Source: Chloroflexota bacterium (GTDB taxonomy: Bacteria > Chloroflexota > UBA11872). Taken from it: a stretch of 64,000 nt of DNA. The stretch lies in the NCBI GenBank assembly GCA_026707585.1, contig JAPOWQ010000025.1, positions 1-64,000 of the forward strand, given 5' to 3'. A program made the position numbers and the translations under genes. Of this stretch, positions 57,547-62,451 are shown piece by piece; positions within the stretch are counted from its first letter, which is position 1, and every line of letters starts with the position of its first letter. The notes below the pieces were generated by a model that was not told where the DNA came from, searched no databases, and saw nothing but the letters and a program-made list of their open reading frames with translations.

Positions 57547-58344
57547 ATGGATCCGAGCGTGCTCGAGTCGGTCGTGAATCGACCCGTGTTTGATCTCGGC
57601 ACGCCCTACAACATGGGCATGCCCGTGCATCCGTCGCATCCGCCCTACGTGTTCACCTTGCAGCGGCGCCACGGCGACACTATGCGCCCGGGCGGCCTTG
57701 GCTCCGCTAATGAACTGATCGTCATGTGCGGCCACACCGGCACGCATCTCGACGCGCTGGCCCACTTCGCGCGCGACGGAATCATGTGCGGCGGTCTCGA
57801 AGCGGCCGAGGTCCAACGCGGCGGCCGCGGAATGACCGAGCACGGCATCGAGCGGGTACCCCCCATCGTGCGCCGCGGCGTTCTGCTTGACGTCGCCGGC
57901 GCCGAGGGCGTCGACATCCTGCCCAATGACTTTGCCATCACCACCGACATAGCCCAGGCCGTCGCCCGCGAGCACGGCGTCGAAGTCCGTAAGGACGATG
58001 CCCTCCTGGTTCGCACCGGCCTCATGCAACGTTGGAACGACCCGGCCTTCCTGGACCTCGAGAACGGCCAGCCCGGAATCACCGCCGACTGCGCCGAATG
58101 GCTGGCCGAGACCGGCGTCTACCTGGGCGGCGCCGACACCATGACCTTCGAGTTCATCCCCGCCGGCGACGACCGCCTTCCGGTCCACGGCATCTTTCTT
58201 GTGGACCACGGCATCCACATCCTTGAGAACGCCGATCTCGAGTCCCTCGCCGCCGCCGGCGTCTACGAGTTCCTCTTTGTAATGTCCCCGCTCAAGATCG
58301 TCGGCGCCACCGCCTCGCCGGTCCGCCCCATCGCCATCGCCTAG
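57547..58344 (+). CDS. cyclase family protein (kynurenine formamidase-like)
   Basis: FDLGTPYNMGMPVHPSHPPYVF, CGHTGTHLDALAHF. Confidence 0.88.
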   Translation: MDPSVLESVVNRPVFDLGTPYNMGMPVHPSHPPYVFTLQRRHGDTMRPGGLGSANELIVMCGHTGTHLDALAHFARDGIMCGGLEAAEVQRGGRGMTEHGIERVPPIVRRGVLLDVAGAEGVDILPNDFAITTDIAQAVAREHGVEVRKDDALLVRTGLMQRWNDPAFLDLENGQPGITADCAEWLAETGVYLGGADTMTFEFIPAGDDRLPVHGIFLVDHGIHILENADLESLAAAGVYEFLFVMSPLKIVGATASPVRPIAIA

Positions 58345-58380: not shown

Positions 58381-59397
58381 ATGAAGGCCGCCTACCTCGA
58401 AGAAGCCCTCCAGGTCCACACCCGCGACGTGCCGCTGCCCGATCCCGGTCCCGGCGAGGTACTCATCCGGGTTCGGTCGGTGGGCGTCTGCGCTTCGGAT
58501 GTCCACTACTACGAACACGGACGCATCGGCCGCTATGTCGTCGGTGAGCCGCTCATCCTCGGCCACGAGCCCGCGGGCGAAGTCGTCGCGCTCGGATCCG
58601 GCATCAACTCCCTCACCGAAGGTGACCGCGTCTCCATCGAACCCGGCGTTCCCTGCCGCGCATGCATGCACTGCCGCACCGGCCACTACAACCTCTGCGA
58701 CGATGTTGTTTTCATGGCAACCCCGCCCGTGCACGGCGCGTTCGTCGAATACGTTGCCCATCCCGCCGACTTCGCGTACCGCATCCCCGACCACGTCTCG
58801 TACGACGAGGCTGCCCTGATCGAGCCGCTCTCGGTCGGCCTGTTCGCCGCCCGTCGCGGACAGGCCCGCCTGGGCGACCGCGCCGCCATCCTGGGCGCCG
58901 GCCCGATCGGCCTTATGACCCTGCTGGCTCTCCAGAGCCAGGGGATCCGCGACGTAACCCTGGTCGACATCGAGCCCTTCCGTCTTCAGAAGGCCCTTGA
59001 ACTCGGCGCCGTTGACGCCATCGACGGCCGCGCAGAAGACGTGGGCCAGACCCGCGCCACCCAGTTCGACCTCGTCGTCGAAACCGCCGGCAACTCCACC
59101 ACCCTTACCCAAACCACCCGCATTGCCCGACGTGGTGGACGTGTCGTGCTGGTGGGTATGACGGACGCGGATCTGACGCCCATCGACACCAACGAACTGG
59201 TCGACAAGGCCCTGGACATTGCCGGTGTATTCCGCTATGCCAACACTTGGCCGCTCGCTGTTGACTTGCTGACCCGCGGCGCGGTCGACATCAAGCCCCT
59301 CATCACCGCGCACTATCCGCTCGAAGCCGCTGGCGAGGCCCTCGAAAGCGCCCGCACCCGCAAGGACGCCAACATCAAGGTCATGGTTACCCCCTAG
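58381..59397 (+). CDS. zinc-dependent NAD(P) dehydrogenase (sorbitol/threonine dehydrogenase-like)
   Basis: VGVCASDVHYYEHGRIGRYVVGEPLILGHEPAGEVVALG, VSIEPGVPCRACMHCRTGHYNLC, AILGAGPIGLMTLLA. Confidence 0.93.
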   Translation: MKAAYLEEALQVHTRDVPLPDPGPGEVLIRVRSVGVCASDVHYYEHGRIGRYVVGEPLILGHEPAGEVVALGSGINSLTEGDRVSIEPGVPCRACMHCRTGHYNLCDDVVFMATPPVHGAFVEYVAHPADFAYRIPDHVSYDEAALIEPLSVGLFAARRGQARLGDRAAILGAGPIGLMTLLALQSQGIRDVTLVDIEPFRLQKALELGAVDAIDGRAEDVGQTRATQFDLVVETAGNSTTLTQTTRIARRGGRVVLVGMTDADLTPIDTNELVDKALDIAGVFRYANTWPLAVDLLTRGAVDIKPLITAHYPLEAAGEALESARTRKDANIKVMVTP

Positions 59398-59468: not shown

Positions 59469-59975
59469 ATGCCCCGCGCCGAAGGCTCAACCACGTTCGC
59501 AACCGGCGACCTCGCGCCGGACTTCGACGTTCCGGTGGCTGGCACCGACGAACGGGTCACCCTGCAGGACTTTGCCGGTCGGTGGCTGTGCCTGGTCTTC
59601 CTGAGACATACCTGGTGACTGAGCTGCCAGGGCTACCTGGCGCGGCTCGAGGTCGAGCTGGACGAGTGGACACGCAGAGGCGCGGCCGTCGCGGGCGTAT
59701 TCCCACAGGGTCTTGACGCCGTTTCGGGATTCGCCACGCGCGAAGAGATTCCGTTTCCTATCTTGGCCGATCCCGATCGCCAGATGACCCGCGACTACGG
59801 CGTGTACGTCCGGTTCCGCTACGACTCCTGGAACACCGCGCGGCCATCCGTGTTCCTTATCGATCCCGCCGGCATGGTGCGCAAGCTGTGGGTTGGCAGT
59901 CACCAACTCGACTGGCCGGTAACCGCGGACTTCTGGCAGGTGATCGACGGCCATGAAGCGAACGGTGAGCAATGA
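59469..59975 (+). CDS. candidate selenoprotein: peroxiredoxin/AhpC-TSA-like thioredoxin-fold protein with in-frame TGA (Sec) at 59616-59618 in a UxxC motif
   Basis: MPRAEGSTTFATGDLAPDFDVPVAGTDERVTLQDFAGRWLCLVFLRHTW[TGA]LSCQGYLARLEVELDEWTRRGAAVAGVFPQGLDAVSGFATREEIPFPILADPDRQMTRDYGVYVRFRYDSWNTARPSVFLIDPAGMVRKLWVGSHQLDWPVTADFWQVIDGHEANGEQ*; the frame is continuous apart from the single TGA. Confidence 0.82.
59621..59648 (+). promoter_or_regulatory. candidate bacterial SECIS hairpin downstream of the in-frame TGA
   Basis: GAGCTGCCAGG-GCTA-CCTGGCG-(CG)-GCTC: 11 bp with one G.U pair and a 2-nt bulge; alternative hairpin 59643-59660 CGGCTCG-AGGT-CGAGCTG. Confidence 0.55.
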
Positions 59976-60078
59976 CCGCAACGGAAAGTTCAAGCCTTCT
60001 ATACTCGGAGTGTGGCGCCCGGCAGTACTGAGCACCACGCGCAGCGGAAGGGTGGACCGCTGGCACCGGAGGACCACC

Positions 60079-60282
60079 ATGACCGCAGGCGAGACGAGCG
60101 CCGACCCTGGACTTGAAGTTTCACGACTCGGCCACCGCATGAGCCGGCTCGAAGGCGCCTACGAGCACCTCGCCACCAAGGCCGACCTCAAGGACCTTGA
60201 ACTGCGACTCACGCTGCGCATGCTCAGCATTGTCGGAGTCGCCACCGGCCTCATCATCGCCGTCGATCGGCTGTGGTCGTAA
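60079..60282 (+). CDS. small coiled-coil plus TM protein, third paralog of 35649/36062
   Basis: EGAYEHLATKADLKDLELRLTLRMLSIVGVATGLIIAVDRLWS. Confidence 0.65.
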   Translation: MTAGETSADPGLEVSRLGHRMSRLEGAYEHLATKADLKDLELRLTLRMLSIVGVATGLIIAVDRLWS

Positions 60283-60294
60283 GCAGTCCGCGCC

Positions 60295-62451
60295 TTAGTC
60301 GACGGCTGCCCTGAGCAAGTCGGCCAGATGCATTGGCCGACCCGCCCCGGGCACTGCCGGCCCCTCGTTGAGGTGCATCAGGCACCCGGGGTTGTCCGCG
60401 CACACCACCTCCGCGCCTGTAGCGGCGAAGGCCTCTAGCTTGCGGGTGCGCATGCGGCGGGCGACTTCCGGGTGATCGAAGGAGAAGGAGCCGCCGAAGC
60501 CGCAGCATTCGCCTGAAGGCGGGGCTTCGACGACCGTGTAGCCGGCGTCGGTTAGCAGCTCGCGCGTCTCGGTGGTCAGCCCCAGGCCATGCTTCGACTG
60601 GCAGGCGTCGTGGATCGTCACCACGCCGCTTGCTCGACCCAGCATCTCGTCGGGAATCCCTCGCTCAGCTACATAGCTAGTGAAGTCCCGCACCTTGGCG
60701 GCCGCCGCCCGGGCACGCTCGGCCCACGCCGGATCGTCCTCTGACAGCCGCGCGTAGTCATTCAGCATCGCGCCGGCGCAGCTGGTTGACGTGCTTACCA
60801 CTGCGTCCACCTCAAGCCGCTCAATGGCTTCGACGGTCTGCCGCATCATCCGCGTCGCTTCATCCTTATATCCCGCGTTGATCGCGGGCAGCGCGCAGCA
60901 CGATGGAAACTGCACGGGATCGACACCGACCCCCAGCGCCTCCAGTACCGCCACCGCGGCCTCGCCGGTCTCCGGCGAAAGCCAGTCCGTCAGGCAGCCG
61001 GGGAAATACGCCACCCGCGTGGTCGCCTTGGAGTCCTTCGTCGCCAGTTCACCAATACGGTCCCGGAACGGCCGTCGCTGCACGTTCGGCAGCGGCCGCC
61101 GTTTCAGTGGCGATCCTGGCAGCTGACGGCCCAGCGCCTGCAACCACGGAGCCTTAGAGGCCAGCCGCGCTCCGCGCTCCAGCATCCCTTCGTCCGCCAG
61201 CGCGCCCAGGGCGCGCTTCTTCATGGTGTTGCTGGAATGCCCCTCGGCCACCGCCCGCTCGCGGACATCGAGGATCAGGTCATGAATCGGAATCCCCGCC
61301 GGGCACACGCTGGCGCAGGCCCCGCAGCCGGCGCAGAGCGACTGCGGCCCGGCAATGTGCTCCAGGCCGTGGTGATAGGGCGTCACCAACAGCCCGATGG
61401 GCCCTGTGTAGATGTGCCCCATCGCGTGTCCGCCCACCTGCTGGTAGACCGGACACACATTCGAGCAGGCCCCGCAGCGCACGCACTGCAAGGCCGAGCG
61501 CATGCGCGGGTTGCTGCGAATGGCCTCGCGCCCGTTGTCCAGCAGCACGATGTGGACGTGCCGCGGACCGTGCACGCCCATCGAAAGCGAAAGCTCGATG
61601 TCGGCGCTGCGGCTGGGGCCCGAGATAAATGACACGTAGGTCGAGATCGGCTGGCCGGTCGCGCTACGCGGGAGGCTCTCCAGCATCGTCGTGGCGTCGG
61701 CCAGGGTGGGTACCAGCTTGTCGATGCCGGCAATCACGATGTGCACTGGCGGCAACGCGCTGGCCAACCGCGTGTTGCCCTCGTTGCATACCAGCATCAC
61801 GGTCCCTGACGCGGCCACCAGCGCGTTCGCGCCCGTGATGCCCGCGCCGGCCTCGATGAAGCGGCTGCGCAGGTGGCGGGCCGCCGCTCCCACCAACACG
61901 TCGGGATCCGGCGGCAGGTCTTCGCCGGTGGCCCGGCTGATCAGTTCGGCCGCGCGCTCGCGAACGATGTGTAGGGCGGGGGCGACGATGTGGGAAGGAC
62001 GCTCCCCCGCTACCTGCACCAGGAACTCGCCGAGGTCGGTCTCCACGACCTCGATGCCGTTGTCCTCGAGGGCGGCGTTGAGTTGGATCTCCTCGGTGGC
62101 CATCGACTTGCTCTTGACCACCATCTGGACCTCATGGTCGTGCAGCACCTGCAGGGCGGTCGCAACAGCGCCCGCGGCGTCGGTGGGTCCATGCACCACG
62201 GTCCCCACGGCCTGCGCCGCGGCCGTGAACTCCTCCACCAACTCCGGCATTCGGTCCAGCGCGGCCTGGCGCCGGCCGCCCAGGTCGGCCTGGCTACCCT
62301 CGAAGTCGCGAGCGCTGAAAGCCGCGTCGCGGCGCTCGCTGAGCTGCGGCAGCGAGCGGCCCAGGGCCACCGGCAGCGACTCTGATTCCAGCGCTTCCCG
62401 TAGCCGCTCCTTGAACGGCGGGATCGTGTGCGCGGCGCTACCGGCCGCCAT
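60295..62451 (-). CDS. LutB-like LUD/[4Fe-4S] protein fused to a LutA-like CCG-domain protein
   Basis: LUD-like N-terminus; CVRCGACSNVCPVYQQVGGHAMGHIYTGPIG; CAGCGACASVCPAGIPIHDLI; then YFPGCLTDW, FPSCCALPAINAG, GECCGFGGSFSF (CCG motifs). Confidence 0.9.
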   Translation of the reverse strand: MAAGSAAHTIPPFKERLREALESESLPVALGRSLPQLSERRDAAFSARDFEGSQADLGGRRQAALDRMPELVEEFTAAAQAVGTVVHGPTDAAGAVATALQVLHDHEVQMVVKSKSMATEEIQLNAALEDNGIEVVETDLGEFLVQVAGERPSHIVAPALHIVRERAAELISRATGEDLPPDPDVLVGAAARHLRSRFIEAGAGITGANALVAASGTVMLVCNEGNTRLASALPPVHIVIAGIDKLVPTLADATTMLESLPRSATGQPISTYVSFISGPSRSADIELSLSMGVHGPRHVHIVLLDNGREAIRSNPRMRSALQCVRCGACSNVCPVYQQVGGHAMGHIYTGPIGLLVTPYHHGLEHIAGPQSLCAGCGACASVCPAGIPIHDLILDVRERAVAEGHSSNTMKKRALGALADEGMLERGARLASKAPWLQALGRQLPGSPLKRRPLPNVQRRPFRDRIGELATKDSKATTRVAYFPGCLTDWLSPETGEAAVAVLEALGVGVDPVQFPSCCALPAINAGYKDEATRMMRQTVEAIERLEVDAVVSTSTSCAGAMLNDYARLSEDDPAWAERARAAAAKVRDFTSYVAERGIPDEMLGRASGVVTIHDACQSKHGLGLTTETRELLTDAGYTVVEAPPSGECCGFGGSFSFDHPEVARRMRTRKLEAFAATGAEVVCADNPGCLMHLNEGPAVPGAGRPMHLADLLRAAVD

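Follow-up and report, generated by a model that had tools for sequence, protein, structure and literature searches.

A predicted UxxC selenoprotein of the AhpC/TSA superfamily in a Chloroflexota genome

The window analysed here, a stretch of 64,000 nucleotides from a Chloroflexota bacterium (GenBank assembly GCA_026707585.1, contig JAPOWQ010000025.1, forward strand), very probably carries a functional selenoprotein gene in which an in-frame UGA is decoded as selenocysteine (Sec), and whose product would be a thioredoxin-fold protein with a UxxC active site and thiol-disulfide chemistry (Table 1). An earlier note on this stretch had proposed a functional selenoprotein and not a nonsense pseudogene, a proposal supported by the conservation of the TGA, by low dN/dS and by the Sec machinery of the genome, with Sec itself predicted. 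We infer both the actual insertion of Sec at codon 50 and the direction and substrate of the redox reaction.

Table 1. Features of the selenoprotein locus and its neighbours (window coordinates)
Feature	Coordinates	Strand	Evidence or remark
Putative cyclase family gene (PF04199)	57547..58344	+	Conserved upstream neighbour
Zinc-dependent dehydrogenase (ADH_N/ADH_zinc_N)	58381..59397	+	Immediately upstream, 71 nt gap; order kept in group A loci tested
Predicted selenoprotein CDS, 168 aa, Sec at residue 50, terminal TGA 59973-59975	59469..59975	+	Frame, PF00578 match, homologues
Predicted Sec-UGA codon (codon 50), first residue of U-L-S-C	59616..59618	+	TGA in 30/30 homologues; Sec/Cys column
TGC codon, Cys53, second residue of UxxC, invariant	59625..59627	+	Alignment of homologues
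Adjacent hairpin TGCCAGG[GCTA]CCTGGCG	59625..59642	+	Compensatory changes in relatives; loop 13 nt from TGA
Candidate bacterial SECIS hairpin CGGCTCG[AGGT]CGAGCTG	59643..59660	+	Loop 59650-59653, 31 nt after TGA, -9.7 kcal/mol
LdhH-like L-lactate dehydrogenase (quinone) large subunit (LUD + Fe-S + CCG)	60295..62451	-	Conserved downstream neighbour

The reading frame is as the earlier note described it, running from the ATG at 59469 through the in-frame TGA and a further 118 sense codons to a terminal TGA. The read-through product matches the AhpC-TSA domain (PF00578; E 2.4e-26; 92.5 bits against a cut-off of 26) over residues 13-139, a span that encloses the TGA, and it also matches the Redoxin domain. 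Standard gene calling yields only a C-terminal fragment or an antisense ORF at this locus, just as had been anticipated for an automatic pipeline. The antisense ORF (59487-60140, minus strand) was rejected as a gene and is regarded as a by-product, its frame being broken by stops in four orthologues (L031, L034, L035 and L036). Further downstream, a 67-aa ORF at 60079-60282 (plus strand), closely preceded by a GGAGG ribosome-binding-like site and lacking a Pfam match, possibly encodes a small coiled-coil/membrane protein.

The AlphaFold2 model is a confident thioredoxin/peroxiredoxin (Prx)-like fold (pLDDT 87, pTM 0.86) in which a helix of residues 51-69 directly follows Sec50, and the motif W-U-L-S-C places UxxC at the thioredoxin active-site position. 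In the proposed mechanism, the UGA would be read as Sec by SelB, tRNA-Sec and a downstream hairpin, for which 59643-59660 is the best candidate, to give an AhpC/TSA-superfamily protein with Sec50 and Cys53 in its UxxC site. From its place at the N-terminal end of helix 1, Sec50 would attack a disulfide or an oxidised thiol of the substrate; Cys53 would carry out the resolving step by way of a Sec50-Cys53 selenenylsulfide, itself reduced in turn by a cellular reductant. The main rival to this mechanism, fully compatible with a selenoprotein and competing on mechanism only, is that the same protein acts chiefly as a peroxidase, Sec50 or Cys53 reducing H2O2 or organic hydroperoxides and a partner residue resolving. 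The AhpC-TSA and Redoxin domains speak for such an activity, as do the closest solved structures by fold, which are peroxiredoxins, the sequence-profile matches in the PDB, led by Bcp-type Prx and followed by ResA, and the alignment of C53 with the peroxidatic Cys of Bcp. However, the known selenoprotein Prx has TxxU, not UxxC (PMC9312934), and the PxxxTxxC plus Arg site of peroxiredoxins is not kept: Prx/Bcp-like homologues carry the catalytic Pro at column 46 in 13/14, Thr or Ser at column 50 in 13/14 and Arg at column 126 in 11/14, whereas all 29 members of the window clade have R46, U50 and P126. Pro126, invariant in the clade, lies by alignment at the thioredoxin cis-Pro position, and UxxC together with a Pro at that position is the thioredoxin/TlpA arrangement. 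This combination, with the Prx site residues absent, favours a thiol-disulfide oxidoreductase, which, as judged from these residues, probably acts via a Sec50-Cys53 selenenylsulfide; a predominantly peroxidatic role is the less likely reading, though a substantial one. The earlier note's placement of the TGA at the first Cys of the CxxC in thioredoxin-fold/AhpC-like proteins stands for TlpA/ResA-type proteins and fails for true peroxiredoxins, whose catalytic Thr/Ser occupies the column and whose peroxidatic Cys aligns with C53. Its label 'Prx' suits the fold and is less apt for the function.

A profile search of 400 genomes in the wider phylum gave matches in 114. Among the extracted homologues, 60 carry U at column 50 and 11 carry C, with Cys53 kept, so that the alignment proposed as a check in the earlier note indeed returns Sec or Cys there; the Prx/Bcp-like homologues carry Thr or Ser. 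In the search table, selA is present in 87/87 genomes with a one-TGA form vs 321/400 overall, the TGA having been placed at the column only for extracted genes and the count of 87 referring to one-TGA forms; the hypergeometric chance of this co-occurrence, 3e-10, is too small a figure owing to shared ancestry. Several Cys forms (L158, L160-L162 and L164, from genomes of families f73 and f10) fall inside or beside Sec clades in the tree, which suggests Sec-to-Cys replacement within the phylum. In three homologues from family f11 (L132, L153 and L154), W-S-P/T replaces W-U/C-x-x-C and there is no second Cys, the redox site apparently having been lost.

The published bacterial SECIS model calls for a loop of 3-9 nt with G in its first two positions, a stem of 4-16 bp, a spacing of 16-37 nt and -7.5 kcal/mol or lower (PMC13188914). 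The earlier note had suggested a SECIS predictor such as bSECISearch; with our own simple implementation of the published constraints in its place, the candidate hairpin of Table 1 (7-bp stem, loop AGGT, spacing 31) falls within the limits in silico, and 94% of its cells are paired in homologues. Taken by itself, the window sequence gives a modest hairpin signal, with some 10% of synonymous shuffles passing the model too, and the single-sequence RNA fold of the region (z -1.46) is indecisive, for which reason comparative tests were applied. The model is passed by 35/41 UGA genes, where 5.8 are expected from synonymous shuffles, and by 5/25 non-Sec homologues, where 3.0 are expected. In the 15 codons that follow the TGA, synonymous conservation reaches 0.89 vs 0.66 elsewhere in the window-type sequences (group A; permutation p 5e-5) and 0.93 vs 0.74 in a second group of copies (group B; p 8.5e-4), with a peak of 0.97 at codons +9 to +15, the site of the candidate hairpin. 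Rfam gave no match to the region at E up to 1. The loop of the adjacent hairpin is too close to the TGA for the published spacing, and this structure could serve as an accessory stem or belong to a longer SECIS. A longer centroid hairpin (stems 59621-59624/59645-59648 and 59626-59631/59636-59641) was rejected: its upper stem covaries, but in the lower one only 86% of cells are paired, with two pairs failing in 5-6 of 20 sequences.

These comparative results bear on another alternative, simple readthrough or regulated early termination, in which a near-cognate tRNA would suppress the UGA and a mainly short product with little Sec would be made. UGA readthrough is possible in general and nothing favours it directly here; the alternation of Sec and Cys at column 50, the conserved SECIS-like hairpin with its synonymous constraint and the complete co-occurrence with selA make it very unlikely. 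Within the Sec-decoding reading, comparison of the sequences suggests a 6-nt displacement of the element in family f1, many other Chloroflexota members having an AGTT- or GGTT-loop hairpin at a spacing of 25. No Cys form was found in the order-level clade of families f1 and f2. It is conceivable, though on balance doubtful, that the two families form a distinct, obligately Sec subfamily (RHxW-U-x-x-C) in which the f1 SECIS moved 6 nt relative to sister lineages, with the kind of protein unchanged. If so, they would offer a natural series for SECIS relocation within a coding sequence; homologues with hairpins at differing spacings are in any case material for studies of SECIS evolution.

Close homologues were sought in 121 genomes (the window genome and 120 relatives) at E <= 1e-20, and 31 were found in 21 genomes. 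The TGA lies exactly at codon 50 in 30/30 extracted orthologues and paralogues from these 21 genomes, down to 38% identity, with terminal stops that vary among TAG, TGA and TAA. Group A (WULSC), its counterpart in the sister genus (A2) and group B, a second copy in the window genus (WUPNC), leave four single sequences outside. Independent assembly of the TGA in 21 genomes contradicts a sequencing error, one of the outcomes the earlier note had named as fatal to its claim; another, further disabling mutations, is likewise contradicted, no other internal stop or disabling change being present in the 30 homologues. Purifying selection acts on the codons downstream of the TGA (dN/dS 0.13 in group A, 0.14 in group B) and likewise on those upstream (0.11 and 0.12). 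A nonsense pseudogene, with a disabling TGA and a decaying downstream part, would account for the interrupted ORF and the truncated gene call, but the shared TGA, the intact frames and the downstream dN/dS leave it almost no probability. No relative was found in the viral contigs searched, and the plasmid search returned only distant Prx/redoxins (~30% identity); relatives on genome contigs beyond the window clade are mostly Bcp/PrxQ or TlpA.

The window genome (3.92 Mb in 75 contigs, 95.6% complete, the window lying on contig C30), whose named relatives are Chloroflexota MAGs, encodes a complete Sec machinery, so that each component the earlier note listed for checking was found: selA (contig C65, 507.8 bits), selB (C39, 332.5 bits, over the cut-off), selD (C49, 369.6 bits, itself interrupted by an in-frame TGA at GAG-U-ACK) and tRNA-Sec (C20, 71.2 bits, anticodon TCA). 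Genome-wide reassignment of UGA, for example to Trp, would also explain reading through codon 50 as an ordinary codon, but is extremely unlikely given this machinery, a tRNA-Trp with anticodon CCA, the exact coincidence of the in-frame TGA with the redox Cys column in the window gene, its paralogues and SelD, and TGA as the terminator of the window gene and several homologues beside TAG/TAA in others. Additional selenoprotein candidates occur in the same genome. SelD itself (L026, G000:C49:11963-12889, plus strand) has a strong SECIS-model hairpin. Another UxxC AhpC/TSA-like candidate (L010, G000:C72:106352-106765, minus strand; FYRAFW-U-GTC) also has a SECIS-model hairpin, with relatives in the window genus, the sister genus and family f46. 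On the window contig beyond the window lies a ResA-like WASW-U-GC candidate (L011, G000:C30:99305-99682, minus strand) that matches NCBIfam WAxxUGC_long at 2e-35, a score under the cut-off of that model for this fragment.

Group A loci share one gene order: cyclase, then zinc dehydrogenase, then selenoprotein, followed on the opposite strand by the LdhH-like gene. The second copy in the window genome (L008, G000:C39:31312-31797, plus strand; 51% identity, WUPNC) has an ABC-2 type transporter ATPase and permease ahead of it, a setting conserved across the genus for group B and found also in the sister genus and two other genus members. In the tree, the window clade unites 29 Sec proteins of the order (support 99/95), and within it A groups with A2 and B stands apart; the ABC-adjacent position is thus plausibly ancestral, the window copy having been relocated. 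The neighbouring genes do not fix the substrate.

Among known systems, the nearest by description is the 'Prx-like thiol:disulfide oxidoreductase (PF00578, UxxC/UxxU)', listed as a predicted selenoprotein family (PMC9312934, PMC13188914), together with 'Prx-like 1' of the GOS selenoproteome, which has the same domain and motif (PMC2398784); the window protein shares PF00578, UxxC, Sec in first position and Cys homologues at that column, and its clade differs in its RHxW-U-x-x-C site and in a SECIS loop 31 nt from the UGA vs 25 nt in many other Chloroflexota members. Bcp/PrxQ peroxiredoxins share the overall fold and the position of C53, but the window protein is without the Pro, Thr and Arg of their peroxidatic site. 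With TlpA/ResA it shares a W-(C/U)-x-x-C motif where helix 1 begins and a Pro that precedes the F-L-I-D strand, and ResA structures are matched; unlike these proteins, it has Sec for the first Cys, AhpC-TSA as top Pfam domain and no signal peptide evident by eye in MPRAEGSTTF. The SelL motif is UxxU, whereas C53 is encoded by TGC in the window gene, making its site UxxC; SelL-related redox proteins (NCBIfam NF040769) are the best NCBIfam match, in the Sec region (5.1e-15), with 55.6 bits lying far under the curated cut-off of 120. Every NCBIfam cut-off is in fact above the score of the window clade. Judged from the titles and abstract openings of the papers surveyed on 'selenoprotein' and Chloroflexi/Chloroflexota, the clade is apparently not treated there. 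Because gene calling truncates or misses such genes and NCBIfam is without a naming model, annotation falls short in a Chloroflexota lineage for which at least five selenoproteins are predicted. The kind of selenoprotein is already described, and the window clade, which no NCBIfam model names, is an added member of it.
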